Shown: positions 15,820 through 26,070 of the stretch, piece by piece
Layout of the letters: each line of letters begins with the position of its first letter
Numbering within the stretch: position 1 is the stretch's first letter
Source: Ensifer sesbaniae
Lineage (GTDB): Bacteria > Pseudomonadota > Alphaproteobacteria > Rhizobiales > Rhizobiaceae
Length of the DNA stretch: 64,000 bases
Direction of reading: 5' to 3'
Assembly (NCBI RefSeq): GCF_013283665.1
Contig: NZ_JABEKU010000003.1
Span: 316,029-380,028 of the forward strand
Position numbers and translations under genes: made by a program
Notes under the pieces: generated by a model
What the model was told of the DNA's origin: nothing
Databases searched by the model: none
The model's input: only the letters and a program-made list of their open reading frames with translations

Positions 15820-16401
15820 TCATGCCGCCGGTTTGTCGATGGTGACCACGAACACGACGGCAGAGGCCGCAGGCTCAATCGTGACGGCGGCGGATCCTTC
15901 AAGGATCGCCGTGTCTCCTGCTGCGAGATCGGCTTGTTCCTCTGCCGCTGCCAGGCGCACCGCGCCGCCGTGGCAAAGGATGAGGGTCGCTTCCGCCGTG
16001 CCGTCCACTGTCTGCGGATGGTCGGTCGCCAGGCGTCGAACCGTATGGGCGAGCCTGCCGCGCCGGGTCATGACGTTGAGATCGACGATCGGACCGTCCA
16101 CCAGCGTCGCAGAGGTCGCGACATCGGCGGGGAAGGGGAGCGGGGCCGTCTCTGCGGTCATCACGATGGGCTCGCGACCCTCGATCATCAGCCGCATGCC
16201 GTTGCCCTGAAGGATCGAGAGCGTGCGGTCGATCCCGGGGAAGCTCGAGAAAGGGCCGTCGCTGGCGACGGTCGCCATGCTCACGCGCCAGTCGAAATCC
16301 GAAAGCGAGGCCTTTTCCGGGAAGACAGCGATCTCCACCGTCTCGCCGCCGCCGTTCTTCCACGGCATGCGTTTGTAGGTGCTGGCGCGCAGGATCTTCA
16401 T
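15820..16401 (-). CDS. hutD: HutD family protein
   Basis: The 193-aa protein is a bicupin of the HutD family: it begins with the family signature YKRMPWKNGGGET, then DFDWRVSMA and SFPGIDRTLSIL. HutD genes accompany histidine-utilisation operons, where they are thought to limit or tune hut expression, possibly by binding urocanate or formyl-glutamate; no enzyme activity is established. Its ATG overlaps the hutH stop (ATGA), so it is the last, translationally coupled gene of the hut-type operon. Length and motifs look intact. Confidence 0.9.
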   Translation of the reverse strand: MKILRASTYKRMPWKNGGGETVEIAVFPEKASLSDFDWRVSMATVASDGPFSSFPGIDRTLSILQGNGMRLMIEGREPIVMTAETAPLPFPADVATSATLVDGPIVDLNVMTRRGRLAHTVRRLATDHPQTVDGTAEATLILCHGGAVRLAAAEEQADLAAGDTAILEGSAAVTIEPAASAVVFVVTIDKPAA

Positions 16402-17894
16402 GGCATGGTCTCTTCGATGAGTGCGCGCATGCGCGCGAAGTCGCCGTTCAGCGGCCGGTCGTCAGAATAGGTCGGGATCTTCGCGCGGATGCGCCGGTAG
16501 AGGCCGTCCGTGCGTGCGGCGCGGCCGCGTGGCTGCAGGTCATAGGCTTGCGTGGCGGCGAGCAGCTCGATCGCCAGGATGGTTTCGAGATTGTCGGCGA
16601 TCGAGAGCGCCTTCCAGGCGGCTGGCGTCGCATGGGTGAGAATGTCCTCCTGCAGCGCCGAGGTGATGCCGCCGTCGAGGCTTGCGGGGGCGGCGAGGCG
16701 CCGGTTTTCGGCGGCAAGCGACGCAGCCGTATATTGCGCGATCATGAAGCCGGAGGAGACGCCGCTGTCGCCGGCGAGAAAGGCCGGCAGGCCGCTCACC
16801 AGCGGGTTGACGAGCCGGTCGATGCGGCGCTCGGAGATGGCGGCGACCTCGGCGATGGCGACCGCCAGGCTGTCCATGGCAAGGCCAAGGGCGGCACCCA
16901 CCGCATGGGCCTGCGAGTGCACTTCCGGCGCCTCGGGCGTCCCTGATACGGCCGGGTTGTCGGTGAGGCTTGCGAGTTCGCGGTCGACGACTTCGGCGAC
17001 CTGGGCCAGGGCATCGCGCGCAGCACCGTGGACGTGCGGCACGGCGCGAAGGCTCAGGGGATCCTGTGTTCGCGTGCCGGCGGTCTCGGCCAGCATCGGG
17101 CTATCGGCGAGGTAGGCGCGGAGCGATGCCCCGACCGCTTCGAGCCCCTTCGAGCGGCGAAGCGCCAGCGGGACGGCGGCGAAGGCATTGGCCTGGCTGC
17201 CGAGGTTTTCATAGGTCATGGCGGCGGCCGCGTCCGCCCAGTCGAAGAGGCGGGCAGCGCGCCAGAGCGCCAGGGCCGCAAGTCCCGTGGCGCAGGGCGT
17301 ACCATTGACGAGGCTCAGGCCCTCCTTGGCCTCGAGCCGCAGCGGCTTCAGCCCGATGCGAGCAAGCGCCTCGACGCCGCCGATCTTGGCCTCGCCGTCA
17401 TCGACGGTTCCGTGGCCGATCAGCACGAGGCCGATCGCGGCCGCGTGGGTCAGATAGCCGACCGAGCCGCGCGACGGGATGTCCGGGACGAGATCGGCGT
17501 TGAGGAGCGCAAGCAGCGCCTCGACCGTCTCGATGCGCACACCGGAATAGCCGTGGGCGAAGTTGGCGATCTGCGCCGCCATCACCGCGCGAGCCTCGGC
17601 GCGGGCGAGCGGCTCGCCGACGCCGCAGGCATGGCTGAGGATGATGTTGCGCGACAGTGCCTGCTGGTTCTCGCGATCGATGACGATGTCGCAGAGCGCG
17701 CCGACGCCGGTGTTGATGCCGTAGCCGCGGATGCTGCGCTCGACCAGCGCGTCGACGATCCGGCGGGCATGGACGATGCGCTGCCGTGCGGCATCGGAAA
17801 GAGCGAGCGGGGCGCCATTGGCGACCGCCGCGATTTGCCGCCACGTCAGCGGCGCATCGAGGATTATGCTCTCAGCGCTTCTACTTTCACTCAT
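16398..17894 (-). CDS. hutH: HutH-like ammonia-lyase homologue lacking the MIO triad
   Basis: A 498-aa member of the histidine/phenylalanine ammonia-lyase fold. Conserved parts include GYGINTGVG (Y58), SHACGVG (H88), LVNGT (N197), QDPLSLR (Q277, R283), SGFMIAQYTAA and LQED (E416). However, where true lyases have GSVGASGDLAPL, this protein reads GSVGYLTHAAA (143-153), so the Ala-Ser-Gly that cyclises into the MIO electrophile is absent. The residue matching catalytic Tyr280 is Leu280. It therefore should not deaminate histidine by the classical route. Ergothionase, a MIO-less relative that expels trimethylamine, is a precedent. It overlaps hutV by 8 bp. An inactive paralogue is the main alternative. 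Confidence 0.85.
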   Translation of the reverse strand: MSESRSAESIILDAPLTWRQIAAVANGAPLALSDAARQRIVHARRIVDALVERSIRGYGINTGVGALCDIVIDRENQQALSRNIILSHACGVGEPLARAEARAVMAAQIANFAHGYSGVRIETVEALLALLNADLVPDIPSRGSVGYLTHAAAIGLVLIGHGTVDDGEAKIGGVEALARIGLKPLRLEAKEGLSLVNGTPCATGLAALALWRAARLFDWADAAAAMTYENLGSQANAFAAVPLALRRSKGLEAVGASLRAYLADSPMLAETAGTRTQDPLSLRAVPHVHGAARDALAQVAEVVDRELASLTDNPAVSGTPEAPEVHSQAHAVGAALGLAMDSLAVAIAEVAAISERRIDRLVNPLVSGLPAFLAGDSGVSSGFMIAQYTAASLAAENRRLAAPASLDGGITSALQEDILTHATPAAWKALSIADNLETILAIELLAATQAYDLQPRGRAARTDGLYRRIRAKIPTYSDDRPLNGDFARMRALIEETMP

Positions 17895-18714
17895 GGGCTT
17901 CCGGTCGTCCCTGTCGGCGTTGCACGAACCGGGCGACGTAATCGTTGGCCGGCCGCTCCAGAATATCGTCCGGCGTGCCGACCTGCACCACCTGACCGTC
18001 CTTGAGGATGGCGATTTCCGAACCGATGCGCAGCGCCTCGTCGAGATCGTGGGTGATGAAGACGATGGTTTTCGCGAGATTCTGCTGCAGTTGCAGCAAC
18101 TGGTCCTGCATGTCGGCGCGGATCAGTGGGTCGAGCGCCGAAAAGGCCTCGTCCATCAGGATCACGTCGGTATCGGCGGCGAGCGCACGGGCAAGCCCAA
18201 CGCGCTGCTTCATGCCGCCGGAGAGCTGGTGCGGGAACTTGGCGTCGTAGCCGGCAAGGCCGACGGTCTCGATCCACTTCATGCCGATCTCGCGGGCTTC
18301 GGCCTTGGGCAAGCCGCGCACGCGCTGGCCGTAGACGACGTTCTGCAGCACGGTTCGGTGCGGCATCAAGGCGAAGCTCTGGAACACCATGCTGACGCGG
18401 TGCATGCGGAAGGTGCGCAGCGCCTTGGCATCGAGGTCCAAGATGTTGTTGCCGTCGAACGCTACTTCGCCGCTGGTCGGCTCGATGAGCCGGTTGATGT
18501 GGCGCACCAGCGTCGATTTGCCGGAGCCGGAAAGCCCCATGATCACGAAGATCTTGCCGGCACCGATCGTCAGGCTGACATTGTTGAGGCCGACGCTGCA
18601 GCCGGAGCGGGCGAGGATTTCGGACTTGTTGAGCCCTTCCTTGGCCATGGCGAGCGCGGCCTTCGCGTCCTGTCCAAAGATCTTGTAGACGTTGCGGATC
18701 TCGATATCAGCCAT
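17887..18714 (-). CDS. hutV: ABC transporter ATPase, HutV/ProV family
   Basis: The 275-aa ATPase energises uptake of a quaternary amine or histidine-like substrate. Walker A GLSGSGKST, signature LSGGMKQRVGLARAL and Walker B VILMDEAFSALDP are intact. It lacks the C-terminal CBS pair of osmosensing ProV/OpuA, as do HutV-type ATPases used for catabolic uptake. It overlaps hutW by 8 bp upstream and hutH by 8 bp downstream, so the transporter and lyase are one operon. Confidence 0.93.
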   Translation of the reverse strand: MADIEIRNVYKIFGQDAKAALAMAKEGLNKSEILARSGCSVGLNNVSLTIGAGKIFVIMGLSGSGKSTLVRHINRLIEPTSGEVAFDGNNILDLDAKALRTFRMHRVSMVFQSFALMPHRTVLQNVVYGQRVRGLPKAEAREIGMKWIETVGLAGYDAKFPHQLSGGMKQRVGLARALAADTDVILMDEAFSALDPLIRADMQDQLLQLQQNLAKTIVFITHDLDEALRIGSEIAILKDGQVVQVGTPDDILERPANDYVARFVQRRQGRPEAHE

Positions 18715-19564
18715 TGCGCGGATCCTCCGTCTGGCTCTTGCCGAAGCCTTGTGTGATGCGGTCGAGAACGATCGCGAGAATGACGATGCCGATGCCGGCT
18801 TCGAGCCCCTTGCCGACGTCGAGCGTCTGGATGCCGTTCAGCACCTGCTCGCCGAGGCCGCGGGCGCCGATCATCGAGGCGACGACCACCATCGACAGCG
18901 CCATCATGATCGTCTGGTTGAGGCCGGCCATGATCGTCGGCGTGGCGAGCGGCAGCTCGACGCCGAAGAGGATCTGGTTGGGGCTGCCGCCGAAGGCGGT
19001 CGCCGCTTCCACCACCTCATGGTCGACCTGGCGGATGCCGAGATCGGTGAGGCGGATCAAGGGCGGCACCGCGTAGATGATGGTCGCCAGGATCGCCGGC
19101 ACCTTGCCGAGGCCGAAGAGCATCAACGCCGGGATCAGGTAGACGAAGCTCGGCATCGTCTGCATGACGTCGAGCACCGGCAGGGTGATGTTGCGCACCA
19201 TCCGGCTCTTGGCGACAAGAATGCCCATCGGCACGCCGATGACGACCGAGACGATCGTTGCCATCAGCATCAGCGCCAGCGTCTGCATCGTCAGGTCCCA
19301 GAGGCCGAGCACGCCGACGAAGAACAGGAGAACGCCGACGACGACCGTCAGACCCCAGCGCTTGGAGCTCTGCCAGGCAAGCGCCATGAAGATGAGGATG
19401 ACGACCCACCAGGGCAGGCCGCGCAGGATCCATTCGATGAACAGAACGGCTTTCAGGATGACGCCGCTGATCGCCTTGAAGACCCAGCCATAGCCGCTGA
19501 CCAGCGCCTGGATGAAATCGTTCACCGGCCCGCGAATGGAGAGATTGAGAGTATCCGGAAACAT
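18707..19564 (-). CDS. hutW: ABC transporter permease, HutW/ProW family
   Basis: A 285-aa inner-membrane permease with about six to seven hydrophobic segments and the binding-protein-dependent transport loop near residues 190-240 (VVEAATAFGGSPNQILFGVELP), where the EAA motif contacts the ATPase. It pairs with the adjacent ATPase and periplasmic binding protein. S. meliloti HutXWV, the named relative, imports histidine, proline and proline betaine; exact specificity here is not visible from sequence. Confidence 0.93.
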   Translation of the reverse strand: MFPDTLNLSIRGPVNDFIQALVSGYGWVFKAISGVILKAVLFIEWILRGLPWWVVILIFMALAWQSSKRWGLTVVVGVLLFFVGVLGLWDLTMQTLALMLMATIVSVVIGVPMGILVAKSRMVRNITLPVLDVMQTMPSFVYLIPALMLFGLGKVPAILATIIYAVPPLIRLTDLGIRQVDHEVVEAATAFGGSPNQILFGVELPLATPTIMAGLNQTIMMALSMVVVASMIGARGLGEQVLNGIQTLDVGKGLEAGIGIVILAIVLDRITQGFGKSQTEDPRNG

Positions 19565-19703: not shown

Positions 19704-20738
19704 TTACTTCAGGCTGGCTTCGATCTTGCCGCGGGCTTCATCGGAAACCCACTTGCCCCAGACGTCGGCCTTGGTCTTCAGGAACTCGGCGGCGGCCGCC
19801 GTCGCGTCGACCTTGTTGTCGGCCATGTAGGCGAGGCTGCCGTTGACGGCGTCGAGCGGGAAAGTCGCCTTTTCGAGGATCGCGACGATCTCGGGCGCTT
19901 CCTGGGCAAAAGTGCTGTTGACGCCGTAGGAGACGTCCACCGACGGGAAAGCGCAGCCCTGGTCACGCTTGCCGTTGGCGCTCGAAAGCTCCTTCCAGCA
20001 GGCTTCGTTGTAGGCCGGTTCTTCGAGCTGGACGAGCTTGAACTTGCCCATGATCGCGGTCGGCGACCAGTAGTAGAAGAGGATCGGCTCGCCCTGGAGA
20101 TAGGCCGAGGTGATGGCGGAATCGAGCGCGGTGCCGGTGCCCGGGCGGAAGTTCACATAGGTCTCGCCGAGCTTGTAGGCTTCGAGCTTGGCGGAGCTCA
20201 CGCCCTCGCAGGTCCAACCCGACGGGCAATTGAGGAAGCGGCCCTTGGACGGTTCTTCCGGATCGGCGAAAAGCTCGACGATCTTGGGATCGGAAAGCTG
20301 CGAGACGCTCTTCAGGTCCGGTGCCTTGGCTTCGAGATTGCGGGAGGCGTCACCCTTGATCACGTATTCCGGCACGAACCAGCCCTCGCTGGCGCCGACG
20401 AAGGTCTTGCCGATGGCGACGACCTTCTTTTCCTCGACGGCCTTGTTCCAGACGTCGGAGCGGCCAAGCCATTCCTCGGCGAAGATCTGCACGTCGTTGT
20501 TGGCCGTCGCCTGCTCCAGCGTCACGGAGTTGCCGGGGATCGAATCCACCTGGCAGTCGTAGCCCTTGGAAAGGATGGTCTTCATCACTTCGGTGATGAA
20601 GGCACCGCTTTCCCAGTCGATGCCGGCGAAGGTGACGGTCTTGCCGTCGCCGCAATAGGAGGCGCTGGCGCTGCCGGTGGAGGCCGCAAGCACGAGGCCG
20701 GTGGCGGCAAGCGTGAGTTTCAGTTTGTTGATCGACAT
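19704..20738 (-). CDS. hutX: Periplasmic substrate-binding protein, HutX/ProX family
   Basis: The start at 20738 has GGGA upstream and gives a typical signal peptide (MSINKLKLTLAATGLVLAAS, cleavage after ASA). The 344-aa protein is an OpuAC-type binding protein; paired cysteines (FLNCPSGWTC, and NEACWKEL with DQGCAF) suggest disulfides. Aromatic residues such as in ILFYYWSPTAIMG likely build the cage for a cationic ligand. It lies 36 bp downstream of hutF and upstream of hutWV. Confidence 0.92.
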   Translation of the reverse strand: MSINKLKLTLAATGLVLAASTGSASASYCGDGKTVTFAGIDWESGAFITEVMKTILSKGYDCQVDSIPGNSVTLEQATANNDVQIFAEEWLGRSDVWNKAVEEKKVVAIGKTFVGASEGWFVPEYVIKGDASRNLEAKAPDLKSVSQLSDPKIVELFADPEEPSKGRFLNCPSGWTCEGVSSAKLEAYKLGETYVNFRPGTGTALDSAITSAYLQGEPILFYYWSPTAIMGKFKLVQLEEPAYNEACWKELSSANGKRDQGCAFPSVDVSYGVNSTFAQEAPEIVAILEKATFPLDAVNGSLAYMADNKVDATAAAAEFLKTKADVWGKWVSDEARGKIEASLK

Positions 20739-20773
20739 TAAGCTGTTCCCTTTTTTGATTTTGGCTTCGATGA

Positions 20774-22150
20774 CTATTTCAGTTTCATCAGCACCCGCGC
20801 GAAGGCGCGGTCGATATCGTCCTCGCGGTCGTGGCGTCCGTTCCGGATCTTCCACTCGCCCGCGACCATGACGTCGCGGACGCTCTCGCCGCCAAGCGCA
20901 AAGAGCCAGCGGTCGAGGATCTGGTTGTCGCTGGCGGCGGCGATATAGGGGTTGCTGCCGTCGAGCACGACGAAATCGGCGCGGGCACCGACGGCGATGC
21001 CGGCCGTCTTCTGGCCGGCAGCCTGGGCGCCGCCTCTAAGTGCGGCGTCGAAGATGGTCCGGCCGATCGAGGCGCCCGGGCCCGTCGCGAGCCGATTGCG
21101 GCGACGATCGCGCAGGCGCTGACCGTATTCGAGCAGGCGCAGTTCCTCGGCGACGCTAGTCGCCACATGGCTGTCGGTGCCGACGCCGAAGATGCCGCCC
21201 TCGGCCATGAAGTCGACCGCCGGGAAGATGCCGTCGCCGAGATTGGCTTCGGTGGCAGGGCAGAGGCCGGCGACTGCGCCCGAACGCGCCAGGCGCTGGC
21301 GTTCGGTTTCCGTGAGATGGGTCGCGTGGATGGCGCACCAGCGCTGATCAACCGGCATCTCATCGAGCAGCCATTCGACCGGGCGGCGGCCGCTCCAGGC
21401 GAGGCTATCGTCGACTTCCTTGGTCTGCTCGGCGACATGGATATGGATCGGGCCGGAAACGGGCGCCGCATCGAGGATGATGCGCATTTCCTCGGGCGTT
21501 GCCGCGCGCAGCGAATGGATGGCGTAGCCGAGCGTGTTGCTGGCTTCGCGGTAGAGCGGCTCAAGGCGCTGGAGTAGGGCCAAGAAACGATCGGGATCAT
21601 GCAGGAAGGGTCGCTGACCGGGGTTCGGTGCGACCCCGCCGAAATTGGCGTGCGCATAGAACACCGGCAGATGCGTGAGGCCGATACCGGTGGTGCGGGC
21701 GGCGGCGAGAATGCGCAGCGACATTTCCGCCGGGTCGGCATAGGGAGTGCCATCGGCCTGATGATGTAGGTAATGGAATTCGGCAACATGGCCGAAACCG
21801 CCCTTCAGCATCTCCGTGTAGAGCTTGGCGGCGATCGCCTCGACATCGTCGGGGTTTACCAGCCCGACGGTGCGATACATTTCCTCGCGCCAGGTCCAGA
21901 AGCTGTCGTCGCCGCTGCCGGCGACCTCGGCAAGGCCGGCCATGGCACGCTGGAAGGCGTGGGAATGAAGGTTGGCGATTGCCGGGATCAGCGGGCCAGC
22001 CGCACGCTCGTCGCCATTGGCGGCGGCGCTGCCGGTTTCGATCGCTGCAATGTGACCCGACGCGTCGAGCGAGATCGCGACGTTCTGGGCCCAGCCGCCG
22101 GGCAGGAGCGCCCGTTCTGCAAAGATCCGGTTGACGGGAAAAGTGGCCAT
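20774..22150 (-). CDS. hutF: Formimidoylglutamate deiminase
   Basis: HutF is a zinc amidohydrolase that converts N-formimidoyl-glutamate to N-formyl-glutamate in the five-step histidine pathway. The 458-aa protein shows the metal-binding NLHSHAFQRAMAG, the family block DSFWTWREEMYR, then HIHVAEQTKEVDD, HATHLTETE and GVGTDSHV with the catalytic Asp. The ATG at 22150 is chosen over one at 22156 because the AGGA site is eight bases from the former and only about two from the latter. It is first in the leftward hut-type operon, divergent from the hutC-type gene. Confidence 0.92.
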   Translation of the reverse strand: MATFPVNRIFAERALLPGGWAQNVAISLDASGHIAAIETGSAAANGDERAAGPLIPAIANLHSHAFQRAMAGLAEVAGSGDDSFWTWREEMYRTVGLVNPDDVEAIAAKLYTEMLKGGFGHVAEFHYLHHQADGTPYADPAEMSLRILAAARTTGIGLTHLPVFYAHANFGGVAPNPGQRPFLHDPDRFLALLQRLEPLYREASNTLGYAIHSLRAATPEEMRIILDAAPVSGPIHIHVAEQTKEVDDSLAWSGRRPVEWLLDEMPVDQRWCAIHATHLTETERQRLARSGAVAGLCPATEANLGDGIFPAVDFMAEGGIFGVGTDSHVATSVAEELRLLEYGQRLRDRRRNRLATGPGASIGRTIFDAALRGGAQAAGQKTAGIAVGARADFVVLDGSNPYIAAASDNQILDRWLFALGGESVRDVMVAGEWKIRNGRHDREDDIDRAFARVLMKLK

Positions 22151-22167
22151 GTGCATTTTCCTGTACG

Positions 22168-22185
22168 TAGTTGTATATGGAACTA
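22168..22185. promoter_or_regulatory. Candidate HutC-type operator
   Basis: TAGTTGTATATGGAACTA has inverted TAGTT/AACTA arms and a core resembling the TTGTATATACAA-type sites bound by HutC-family GntR repressors. It lies 18-35 bp upstream of the hutF start in the 137-bp divergent region shared with the regulator gene, well placed to repress both. Confidence 0.5.
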
Positions 22186-22287
22186 TAGATATTTTGCGCT
22201 GGCGCGCAAGCGTGAAATGAACGAAAAGATTTGTGAGCGAATGCGCATGATTTGTTCGGCATTCTGGAAAAGGCGGGGCGTGAGTTG

Positions 22288-23031
22288 ATGACGGCACTCA
22301 AAAAACGAAACGATATGGCCGCCTTCGAAGACGGGCCGGTGCCGCGCTACGAGGCGGTCAAGCAGTTCATCCGCAGCCGTATCGAGAGCGGCGAGTGGCC
22401 GGCGCATCACCGCATCCCCTCGGAAAACGAGATCGTCGCCGACCTCGGCGTCAGCCGCATGACCGCCAACCGGGCGCTCAGGGAACTCGCGACCGAAGGC
22501 GCGATCACGCGGGTGCAGGGCGTCGGCTCCTTCGTCGCCGCGCACAAGGGCAGCACCGCCCTCTTGGAAGTCCGCAACATCGCCGATGAAATCCATGAAC
22601 GCGGCCACATCCACACGTCGCTGATGACGCTTCTGCAGGAAGAGGTGGCGACGCCCGAAATCGGTTACGCGCTCGGACTTGCAACCGGCGCCCGTGTCTT
22701 TCATTCGATCATGGTGCATTCGGAAAACGGCCTGCCGATCCAGATCGAGGACCGTTTCGTCAATCCGGCGGTCTGCCCGCGTTATCTGGAGCAGGATTTC
22801 CAGGCGATGACGCCGAATGCCTATCTCACTGCAGTCGCGCCGATCACCCGCACCGAACAGATCGTCGAGGCTGTGTCGCCGCAGCCTTGGGAATGCAAGC
22901 TGCTCGGCATCGACCGCAACGAACCCTGCCTGATGATCCGCCGCCGCACCTGGTCGGAGACGGCCAATGTGACGACGGCACGGCTGCTCTATCCCGGCAC
23001 CCGCTATCGCCTCGAAGGCATGTCGCAATAG
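22288..23031 (+). CDS. hutC: GntR-family repressor of the HutC subfamily
   Basis: A 247-aa regulator. Residues about 15-80 are the winged helix (PRYEAVKQFIRSRIESGEW, then ADLGVSRMTANRALREL), and the rest is a UTRA effector-binding domain with the typical ending RRRTWSETANVTTARLLYPG-like pattern. HutC proteins normally respond to urocanate. Starts at 22252 (TTG) and 22288 (ATG) are both open; I prefer 22288, which matches family length. Divergent from hutF; next gene rightward begins 115 bp downstream. Confidence 0.9.
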   Translation: MTALKKRNDMAAFEDGPVPRYEAVKQFIRSRIESGEWPAHHRIPSENEIVADLGVSRMTANRALRELATEGAITRVQGVGSFVAAHKGSTALLEVRNIADEIHERGHIHTSLMTLLQEEVATPEIGYALGLATGARVFHSIMVHSENGLPIQIEDRFVNPAVCPRYLEQDFQAMTPNAYLTAVAPITRTEQIVEAVSPQPWECKLLGIDRNEPCLMIRRRTWSETANVTTARLLYPGTRYRLEGMSQ

Positions 23032-23145: not shown

Positions 23146-26070
23146 ATGGTTGAGGACGCGCTGAAGCTTCGCACCGAGCTGCCGAGGCCCGATGTCAGCG
23201 CCGAGGAGGCGCGGGCGCTGCTGGCCGAGCACTACGGTCTGTCAGGCACGATCAGCGAACTCGGCAGCCAGCAGGACCGCAACTATCGCATCGATACCGG
23301 CGAGCGGCGCTATGTCTTGAAAATCTGCCGTGCGGAATATGGAGCGCTCGAACTCGAGGCCCAGAATGCGGCCTTAGAGCACTTGTCCCAGCGCCTGACT
23401 TCGGCGCGTGTTGCGGAAGTGGTGCCTTCGCTCAAGGGCGAGGCGATCGAGAGCGTTACCGTTCGCGACCAGGCCTACCGCATCCGCCTGCTGAATTTTC
23501 TCGATGGCGAGCCGCTCACCCGGCGCAAGCATCTCTCGCGTGAAGCCGTTTCCGCGCTCGGAGACCTGGCCGGGCGGCTGGCCGCCGCGCTGCAGGACTT
23601 CGAGCATCCCGGGCTTGAACGCGAGCTGCAATGGGACGTGCGCCGCGCCGGTCCCGTCGTGCTCCATCTTCTCGCCGACATGCCGGATCAGCAGCGCAAG
23701 AAGCGGATCGCCGAAATTATGGTCGGCGCGATGCGGCGTCTGCAGCCGCTCACGGCGGAACTGCGCGTCCAGGCGATCCATCATGATGTCACCGATGACA
23801 ATGTGGTGAGCCAGCCGGATGCGGCCGGCCGTCCGATCCCGGATGGCGTCATCGATTTCGGCGATATCCTGAAGGGGTGGCTGGTTGCCGAACTTGCGGT
23901 CACCTGCGCCTCGCTGCTCCATCACGCCGATGGCGACCCCTGGTTCATCCTGCCGGCGGTCAAGGCGTTTCATGCGGCGTGCCCGCTGACCGAAGCGGAA
24001 CTGAAGGCGCTCTGGCCGCTGATCGTCGCCCGCGCCGCCGTGCTCATCGCAAGCTCCGAGCACCAGCTTTCCCGCGAGCCCGACAACGCCTATGTCGAGG
24101 GCAATGCCGCGCATGAGCGGGAGATCTTCGATGTTGCGACCTCGGTTCCGCCGGCGGTGATGGAACACGCCATCCTGACGGCGGCGGGGCTTTCCCCCGC
24201 GTTGACGCCTGTCACGGGAGAAGGCCTGATCCGGGGGCTCGGGCCGACCGACGTGCGTCCGATCGACCTGTCGATCCTGAGCCCGCTGTTGCCGGAGGAA
24301 CGCTGGCAGCACCAGGGGCTGCCGATTTCGCTGCTGCAGCACGCCGCCCACGCGATCGGGGTCGCGACCACCCGCTACGGCGAGTACCGGATGACCGAAA
24401 CGCAACGCAGATCGCCGAAGCCCGACCCGACGCTGGCGCTGCATGTCGACATCTGCCTGGAAGCGGGCCGCGAGATCGTTGCCCCGTTTGCGGGGCGCAT
24501 CATCCGGCAGGACGGGCTGCTGGTTCTGGACGGAGCCGAGGCGAGCCTTTTCCTTGAAGGCGTCGAAGTCGGTGGCGAAATCGAGGAGACCGTCGCCGCC
24601 GGTGACGTGGTCGGTGTCGTCTCGGGTGAGCAGCAGACCTATGGCCTGATCCGCGTGCAGCTTTGCCGCGAGCACGGCCTCGTTCCGCCGCTCTTCGTGA
24701 TGCCGCATCAGGCGGAGGCGTGGAAGGCCTTGTGCCCGTCGCCGGCCGCCGTCCTCGGCTTCGAATGCGATGCGCCGGAACCGCACAGCGACGCGCTGCT
24801 TGCCCGTCGCCGGCAGCATTTCGCCAAGCCGCAGAAGAACTACTACCGGCACCCGCCCCAGATCGAGCGCGGCTGGAAGGAATACCTCTTTGACGTCGAG
24901 GGCCGCAGCTATCTCGACATGGTCAACAACGTGACGATCCTCGGTCATGGGCATCCGCGACTGGCGTCCGCGGTCGGGCGGCAATGGTCGCTGCTCAACA
25001 CCAATTCGCGCTTCCACTATGCCTCCGTCGCCGAATTCTCGACGCGGCTGGCGGCGCTTGCGCCAGACGGGCTCGACACGGTGTTCCTGGTCAATAGCGG
25101 CTCGGAGGCGAACGATCTGGCGCTCAGGCTTGCCTGGGCCCATTCCGGCGCCCGCAACGTCGTCAGCCTGCTCGAGGCCTATCACGGCTGGACGGTTGCC
25201 AGCGACGCAGTCTCCACCTCGATCGCCGACAATCCGCAGGCGCTCGAAACACGACCGGCCTGGGTGCATCCGGTGCAGGCGCCCAACACCTATCGCGGCG
25301 AATTCCGTGGTGCCGATACGACCGACAGTTATGTCCGCGCCGTCGTCACGAAGCTTACCGAGCTCGACGCCGCCGGCGAAAAGCTTGCCGGCTTCATCTG
25401 CGAACCCGTGTACGGCAATGCCGGCGGCATTCCTTTGCCGAAGGGTTATCTCGACGCGGTCTATGCCATGGTGCGGTCACGCGGCGGCGTCTGCATCGCC
25501 GACGAGGTGCAGGTCGGCTATGGTCGTCTCGGCGACTACTTCTGGGGCTTTGAAGAGCAGGGCGTCGTTCCCGATATCATTACCGTCGCCAAGGGCATGG
25601 GCAACGGCCATCCGCTCGGCGCCGTCATCACCCGGCGCGAGATTGCCGATGCGCTGGAGAAGGAGGGGTATTTCTTCTCGTCCGCCGGCGGCAGCCCCGT
25701 CAGCTCCGTCGTCGGCCAGACCGTGCTCGACATCCTCACGGAAGAGCGGCTTCCGGAGAATGCCCGTGTCGTCGGCGGCCATCTGAAGGCGCGGCTCGAA
25801 GCGCTCGGACAACGCTTCCCGCTGATCGGCGCCGTGCACGGCATGGGGCTCTATCTCGGCGTCGAATTCGTGCGCGACCGGGAGACCCTGGTGCCGGCGA
25901 CAGAGGAGACAGCAGCGATCTGCGATCGCCTGCTCGAACTCGGTGTCATCATGCAGCCGACCGGTGACCATCTGAATGTGCTGAAGATCAAGCCACCGCT
26001 CTGCCTCAGCCGGGAGAGCGCCGACTTTTTCGCCGACATGTTGGCGCGGGTGCTGGAGGACGGCTGGTAA
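23146..26070 (+). CDS. Kinase-degenerate M23-class III PLP fusion (phospholyase-like)
   Basis: A 974-aa three-part enzyme. Residues 1-350 are an APH-type kinase: K59 (YVLKI), catalytic D214 and N219 (IHHDVTDDN), D237-F-G. Residues about 420-530 correspond to an M23/LytM-like region whose zinc motifs are lost (no HxH; GLIRVQL instead). Residues 560-974 are a class III PLP enzyme with D786 (IADEVQ) and PLP lysine K816 (VAKGMGNGHP), closest by pattern to AGXT2L-type phospholyases. In humans separate kinase and phospholyase act successively on hydroxylysine; by analogy this protein could phosphorylate an amino alcohol and eliminate phosphate and ammonia. It follows hutC on the same strand, 114 bp apart. 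Confidence 0.85.
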   Translation: MVEDALKLRTELPRPDVSAEEARALLAEHYGLSGTISELGSQQDRNYRIDTGERRYVLKICRAEYGALELEAQNAALEHLSQRLTSARVAEVVPSLKGEAIESVTVRDQAYRIRLLNFLDGEPLTRRKHLSREAVSALGDLAGRLAAALQDFEHPGLERELQWDVRRAGPVVLHLLADMPDQQRKKRIAEIMVGAMRRLQPLTAELRVQAIHHDVTDDNVVSQPDAAGRPIPDGVIDFGDILKGWLVAELAVTCASLLHHADGDPWFILPAVKAFHAACPLTEAELKALWPLIVARAAVLIASSEHQLSREPDNAYVEGNAAHEREIFDVATSVPPAVMEHAILTAAGLSPALTPVTGEGLIRGLGPTDVRPIDLSILSPLLPEERWQHQGLPISLLQHAAHAIGVATTRYGEYRMTETQRRSPKPDPTLALHVDICLEAGREIVAPFAGRIIRQDGLLVLDGAEASLFLEGVEVGGEIEETVAAGDVVGVVSGEQQTYGLIRVQLCREHGLVPPLFVMPHQAEAWKALCPSPAAVLGFECDAPEPHSDALLARRRQHFAKPQKNYYRHPPQIERGWKEYLFDVEGRSYLDMVNNVTILGHGHPRLASAVGRQWSLLNTNSRFHYASVAEFSTRLAALAPDGLDTVFLVNSGSEANDLALRLAWAHSGARNVVSLLEAYHGWTVASDAVSTSIADNPQALETRPAWVHPVQAPNTYRGEFRGADTTDSYVRAVVTKLTELDAAGEKLAGFICEPVYGNAGGIPLPKGYLDAVYAMVRSRGGVCIADEVQVGYGRLGDYFWGFEEQGVVPDIITVAKGMGNGHPLGAVITRREIADALEKEGYFFSSAGGSPVSSVVGQTVLDILTEERLPENARVVGGHLKARLEALGQRFPLIGAVHGMGLYLGVEFVRDRETLVPATEETAAICDRLLELGVIMQPTGDHLNVLKIKPPLCLSRESADFFADMLARVLEDGW

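Follow-up and report, generated by a model that had tools for sequence, protein, structure and literature searches.

The 64,000-nucleotide stretch of the Ensifer sesbaniae genome analyzed here (the window; contig NZ_JABEKU010000003.1, positions 316,029 to 380,028) encodes a member of the PF00221 family that resembles histidine ammonia-lyase (HAL or HutH, EC 4.3.1.3) and lacks the Ala-Ser-Gly (ASG) triad from which HAL forms its electrophilic 4-methylideneimidazole-5-one (MIO) group. We call the gene and its family YLTH, after the loop that stands in place of the triad. The protein is very likely some type of quaternary-amine lyase, and we regard it as the probable hercynine (histidine betaine) trimethylamine-lyase of this genome. 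Trimethylamine is the most likely group to be removed, because the MIO-forming part has been lost and because YLTH sits beside a real HutH in hut operons. We also lean, though by a smaller measure, toward the wider proposal that the YLTH family is the missing hercynine lyase and that, together with HutXWV, it constitutes a second entry into the Hut pathway beside histidine in rhizobia, Burkholderiaceae and Pseudomonas.

The gene is a single open frame with an ATG start, located where the earlier note had reported a HutH homologue, and its product matches PF00221 over the full length of the profile (residues 16-470, profile positions 1-465 of 466, 1.9e-147). The loop GSVGYLTHAAA, which that note had read in place of the MIO-forming triad, lies at residues 143-153, and in it one Tyr replaces the ASGD of HAL with a net loss of three residues (GSVG-Y-LTHAAA versus GSVG-ASGD-LAPLAH). 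The alignment also bears out the reported Leu280 in place of the catalytic Tyr280 of HAL, as well as the retention of Tyr58, His88, Asn197, Gln277, Arg283 and Glu416, which are active-site residues of HAL. The triad and the catalytic Tyr280 that characterize a histidine ammonia-lyase are thus both missing, and the protein scores below the cut-offs of the curated HAL models (TIGR01225, 456.7 versus 539.15 bits; NF006871, 470.3 bits with a cut-off of 524).

Besides the query copy, the alignment contains 227 rows, with 133 of the YLTH type, 89 of the HAL type, four of the CADIG type and one ergothionase; the distinct sequences number 121-122 for YLTH, 82-86 for the HAL type (without the crystal chain) and 3 for CADIG. 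Tyr147 and Leu280 occur together in 133/133 YLTH rows, and His150 is found in 132 of them, the exception (L043) having Asp and reading YLTD for YLTH. Tyr280 is present in all 89 HAL-type rows, of which 88 carry ASG; the remaining row is crystal chain 1b8f, where X stands for the MIO. The six active-site residues named above are invariant across the YLTH rows, and Leu280 is common to YLTH, the ergothionase of Treponema denticola and all four CADIG rows, which represent 3 distinct proteins. The YLTH rows also retain Asn197, Thr411 and Gln415 of HAL, whereas Ser, then Val or Leu, and then Ile, Leu or Met occupy these positions in the ergothionase and CADIG rows. Between the window gene and five relatives, the ratio of nonsynonymous to synonymous substitution rates (dN/dS, Nei-Gojobori method, NG86) ranges from 0.15 to 0.29 at dS of 0.83-1.30, and the gene is under purifying selection. 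These ratios and the invariant residues rule out a decayed pseudogene, in agreement with the earlier view that the protein is not simply decayed, and the joint presence of Tyr147 and Leu280 in every YLTH row rules out a chance substitution or a sequencing or assembly error.

In a tree of 64 proteins, the YLTH sequences form one side of a branch with 100/100 support, and without constraint they lie beside the main HAL group and not beside the ergothionase of structure 6s7j, which is a long branch. The unconstrained tree tentatively suggests two independent losses of the MIO; forcing all MIO-less rows into a single clade costs 2.46 log units and is not rejected (approximately unbiased test, p-AU 0.466), and the set includes the long branches L141, 6s7j and L127. 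YLTH is a discrete, real and conserved family and probably a misnamed enzyme; in the records examined, its members are annotated as histidase wherever they are annotated at all. Further PF00221 loops without ASG were observed at other loci (L201, L205, L209, L206 and L211), namely GSVGCGDLG, GSIGAGDLG (with Arg at the H88 position and Leu280) and GTVGEGDLG/GTLGEGDL (with Glu at 280), and judged from such sequences PF00221 seems to hold several MIO-less lyases beyond YLTH.

The earlier note had proposed structure prediction and alignment with a characterized ergothionase as checks. The AlphaFold2 model of the window protein, built with 41 alignment rows (mean predicted local distance difference test score, pLDDT, 91.3; predicted template modeling score, pTM, 0.92), has a HAL-like fold, and its closest matches in the PDB are the HAL structures 1gkj and 1b8f (template modeling score, TM, 0.92 to both), with ergothionase 6s7j at rank 16 (TM 0.90). 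Going by this model, it is residues and not the fold that would tell HAL function from ergothionase function. The alignment with ergothionase gave the missing triad and Leu280 as the features common to both, so that the window protein has the residue pair of an ergothionase. The available part of PMC13405746 describes ergothionase as a producer of trimethylamine and thiourocanic acid in which MIO is absent, in line with the earlier note's statement that MIO-less lyases of this fold (ergothionase) eliminate trimethylamine.

Three PF00221 proteins are found in the genome of the window: an ASG HutH, the YLTH protein and a third one, P0002. The ASG HutH is on another contig, beside HutI, HutG and HutU. 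This coexistence recurs among relatives, as all eight YLTH genomes in a class sample of 289 genomes also carry an ASG HutH (loops read), and so do 13 of the 14 genomes reached through loci. In a family sample of 199 genomes, 31 have a match at YLTH level (at least 626 bits; next match 420), and a second HutH-level match, judged by score (E <= 1e-100) and not by reading the loops, is present in 31/31 of these versus 133/168 of the others (Fisher P = 0.0018).

A genome scan matched at least 594 stretches, with at least 570 relatives, and the best 80 of these are the named loci analyzed here. They come from Rhizobiaceae, other Hyphomicrobiales, Burkholderiaceae, Pseudogemmobacter, Acidisoma, a Pseudomonas metagenome-assembled genome (MAG) and gammaproteobacterial MAGs. 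Their neighborhoods, a few of them shortened by contig ends, were compared by tblastn with reference proteins within 9 kb. HutC was found in 70/80 loci, a hut enzyme or HutD in 35/80, and either of these in 74/80; ASG HutH is present in 22/80 and shares the same-strand run of YLTH in 12/80. Three loci have the order HutF-OpuAC-permease-ATPase-YLTH-HutI-HutH-HutG-HutU-HutD. In five further loci (L064, L071, L072, L074 and L092), and likewise in Aureimonas L038, HutU and HutI accompany YLTH with no ASG HutH in reach. This context, including the operons with HutU and HutI and no nearby ASG HutH, implies that the product of the YLTH enzyme most likely enters the Hut pathway at urocanate.

Similar arrangements exist in Pseudomonas, where 46 of 59 genomes, sampled from the genus of the Pseudomonas MAG that contains L117, have a match of at least 370 bits. 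The loop was read in 30 of the 46, and all 30 homologues are MIO-less with Leu280; most share about 48-51% identity with the window protein, and in 24 cases the short locus also contains an ASG HutH. Among six larger Pseudomonas regions, L173, L174 and L175 share the order HutU-OpuAC-permease-ATPase-YLTH-HutH-HutI-HutG, and L178, which is close to the end of a contig, contains OpuAC-permease-ATPase-YLTH plus HutG. A hutXWV-hutH1 module of Pseudomonas, with hutH1 named a histidase, is described in the available part of PMC8871633. For strain PAO1, the accessible part of PMC12772324 states that losing hutH (PA5098) alone hampers growth on histidine; because the same paper labels PA5093 as hutG, we assign no P. 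aeruginosa locus tag to the YLTH gene.

On the minus strand of the window, the genes follow one another in the order HutF, OpuAC binding protein, permease, ATPase, YLTH and HutD, with HutC divergent, and the YLTH gene is thereby linked with HutC, HutF and HutD in a Hut operon (Table 1). The overlaps between the YLTH and ATPase genes (17887-17894) and between the ATPase and permease genes (18707-18714) place the betaine-type ATP-binding cassette (ABC) importer in the same gene run, as expected from the claim that the gene shares an operon with a quaternary-amine-type importer. Since the only HutF above the curated cut-off genome-wide lies here (next best match 85 bits), the window operon seems to supply a step needed by the five-step histidine route. 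In the OpuAC protein, Trp92, Trp177 and Trp226 (numbered from 20744) align with Trp65, Trp140 and Trp188 of E. coli ProX, which we take to be its betaine aromatic box, and all three are retained in 22/22 relatives; among solved binding proteins, the nearest in sequence is 7yle, which carries the name of a glycine betaine/proline type. The gap between hutC and hutF contains a partial match to a palindrome that we take to be the HutC motif; 9 of 1000 shuffles matched equally well, and the identical 12 letters occur in 5/5 loci of the group L041-L045.

Table 1. Features of the YLTH locus, with coordinates given as positions in the window.
Feature	Coordinates	Strand	Basis
YLTH gene, MIO-less HutH homologue, proposed hercynine trimethylamine-lyase	16398..17894	-	498 aa, PF00221
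Loop GSVGYLTHAAA (residues 143-153), replaces MIO-forming GSVGASGDLAPLAH of HAL	17436..17468	-	Alignment
Leu280 codon, catalytic Tyr in HAL	17055..17057	-	Leu in 133/133 YLTH rows, Tyr in 89/89 HAL-type rows
HutD (Hut accessory protein), directly downstream of YLTH gene, 4 bp overlap	15820..16401	-	PF05962 1.3e-57
ATPase, ProV/ChoV-type ABC importer	17887..18714	-	TIGR01186 347.9 bits vs cut-off 326.6
Permease of betaine-type importer, ProW/ChoW-like	18707..19564	-	PF00528 6e-28; TIGR03416 9.3e-88, below cut-off
OpuAC-type substrate-binding protein	19704..20744	-	PF04069 6.2e-62
HutF, formimidoylglutamate deiminase; start 22156 or 22150	20774..22156	-	TIGR02022 710 bits vs cut-off 413
HutC-type GntR/UTRA regulator, divergent	22252..23031	+	Orthologues annotated hutC; HutC-cluster representative GntR + UTRA
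TTGTATATGGAA in hutC-hutF gap	22171..22182	.	2 mismatches vs palindrome TTGTATATACAA; weak evidence

Two other features of the window lie near this operon. A fusion of an APH-type kinase with a class-III aminotransferase (23146-26070, plus strand) lies next to hutC, as it does in five other Sinorhizobium/Ensifer loci, and a Prim-Pol domain protein (PF09250; 11424-13919, minus strand), possibly derived from a mobile element, is near the downstream end.

P0002 (loop GSMGCADIG, Leu280) is the second MIO-less PF00221 protein of this genome, and its best PDB match is the T. denticola ergothionase 6s7j (1.8e-54). It resembles the window protein in lacking ASG and having Leu280, with 26.5% identity between the two, but it has different neighbors: genes for urocanase, S-Me-THD/DUF917, M20 and amidohydrolase proteins (L005:1009-8662), as opposed to HutC and HutF at the YLTH locus. 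The five-gene set is also found together in L121 and L122. These thio-imidazole breakdown neighbors (second urocanase, DUF917, M20 hydrolase) are present at L005 and gave no match at the window locus. The P0002 cluster is likely an ergothioneine-type breakdown cluster; it suits a sulfur-bearing imidazole, and the window operon suits plain urocanate.

In the mechanism that we propose, with the reaction drawn by analogy to ergothionase, the OpuAC/ABC importer would bring in a quaternary derivative of histidine, with hercynine (N-alpha-trimethyl-L-histidine) as the most likely one. HAL requires its MIO for activation of the amino group; the YLTH enzyme would have no need of one and would have lost it, because a quaternary trimethylammonium is already a good leaving group. 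A retained residue or one in the loop would remove the beta proton, and trimethylamine would depart from hercynine to give trans-urocanate, which HutU, HutI, HutF and HutG would carry on to glutamate, with HutC presumably sensing urocanate. The earlier note had left the substrate as hercynine, ergothioneine or a related betaine. Hercynine is now favored because HutF is in the operon, because relatives stand in complete hut operons and because the ergothionase-like cluster of this genome is a separate one; that cluster also makes ergothioneine the less likely part of the claim.

Several observations weigh against a hercynine lyase of the Hut pathway. No hut gene is near in 6/80 loci (L053, L078, L093, L095, L097 and L117) or in two of the six larger Pseudomonas regions (L176 and L177), and an OpuAC match was obtained in only 16/80 loci, as against a family-3 (amino-acid type) binding protein in 47/80. 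Among 10 neighbors from L082, L053 and L078, with no wider search, there is no obvious trimethylamine-using gene. The identification of YLTH with hutH1 of P. fluorescens SBW25 is made by gene order, as given in the available part of the module's description, and not by the SBW25 sequence. In Pseudogemmobacter humi (L064), a full hut operon contains YLTH and no ASG HutH was found in the draft assembly, its only other PF00221 protein being of the GSVGCGDLG type; this species offers a natural test of whether the YLTH family can act on histidine. On the Agrobacterium plasmid pAt15955 (L040), a YLTH gene whose product is 63.7% identical to the window protein has a differing neighborhood, in which it shares one run with an OpuAC importer, a second urocanase, a molybdopterin S/N-oxide reductase, a Zn hydrolase and an amidohydrolase (L040:796-10500), and no HutC or HutF is annotated or matched there. 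This locus is perhaps a pathway for an oxidized or sulfonated imidazole betaine, and because its neighborhood differs, the substrate may vary between members of the family.

The L040 gene, paired with its second urocanase, Mo reductase and Zn hydrolase, also speaks for a function as ergothionase, in which trimethylamine would be released from ergothioneine (or ergothioneine sulfonate) to leave thiourocanate or its sulfonate. A title in the reference list of PMC13405746 names a pathway for ergothioneine sulfonate in Agrobacterium radiobacter, the absence of ASG and Leu280 are shared with the T. denticola enzyme, and a single MIO-less clade is not rejected by the approximately unbiased test. We nevertheless consider this function unlikely for the window protein, since P0002 is the protein that matches 6s7j best and has its own five-gene cluster, the window operon has the HutF and HutC of the plain imidazole route, and YLTH keeps Asn197, Thr411 and Gln415 of HAL and lies next to the main HAL group in the unconstrained tree. 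A different N-alpha-methylated or quaternary relative of histidine (dimethylhistidine, a methylated ring histidine betaine or a different aromatic betaine) would account for the differences in importer type among loci, and a partly methylated amine would suit the DAO-family FAD (flavin adenine dinucleotide) oxidoreductase that comes immediately after the YLTH gene, in one run with it, in 8/80 loci, all rhizobial (L088, L089, L104, L110, L111, L113, L114 and L115); but the Hut enzymes downstream in complete operons require plain urocanate as the product, and we hold such a substrate to be improbable. Histidine ammonia-lyase activity without MIO is more doubtful still: the other HAL residues are kept, YLTH takes the place of HutH in the six hut operons listed above, and the P. 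humi draft has no ASG HutH, yet ASG and Tyr280 are both lost, a true HutH coexists in nearly all genomes compared (8/8, 13/14 and, by score, 31/31), and the protein falls short of both HAL cut-offs. Least credible is a catalytically dead paralogue that serves as an assembly partner of HutH or as a sensor; YLTH does adjoin HutH in Pseudomonas and several Rhizobiaceae, but the six active-site residues are invariant, the new residues Tyr147 and His150 are fixed or nearly so, and many loci have YLTH apart from HutH and still with an importer.

MIO-free lyase chemistry in the HAL fold is already known from ergothionase; the novelty would lie in a large family of orthologues that are annotated as histidase, are predicted to act on another substrate and belong to a textbook pathway. 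A literature search whose coverage left out most subscription journals showed, among the papers listed, no report of a hercynine lyase, and it gave no paper joining hercynine, trimethylamine and urocanate, and with that coverage novelty is unproven. A hercynine lyase would give hutH1 and hutXWV a concrete, testable role and correct annotations in many genomes, and the triad together with residue 280 would form a diagnostic pair for telling ammonia lyases from betaine lyases within PF00221. If true, it would explain why a second hutH gene and a betaine-type importer labeled "histidine" are present in so many genomes, and trimethylamine would gain a further source in soil. Because ergothioneine is made from hercynine as its precursor, hercynine breakdown also bears on the turnover of ergothioneine in soil.

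Compared with characterized systems, the window protein is closer to HAL than to the known ergothionase. With HutH of P. putida (1b8f) it shares the fold noted above, 36.9% identity and the six active-site residues, and it differs in having one Tyr for ASGD, Leu for Tyr280 and scores that miss the curated HAL cut-offs. With the T. denticola ergothionase (6s7j) it shares the PF00221 fold, the absence of ASG (GEGD in 6s7j) and Leu at 280, whereas identity is 27.6%, the loop is GYLTHAA as opposed to GEGDITTLS, and 6s7j has Ser, Leu and Ile where both YLTH and HAL have Asn197, Thr411 and Gln415. As far as the available part of PMC8871633 describes it, the hutXWV-hutH1 module agrees with L173-L175 in gene order and importer type; in the window, by comparison, the importer and YLTH stand with HutF, HutC and HutD only.

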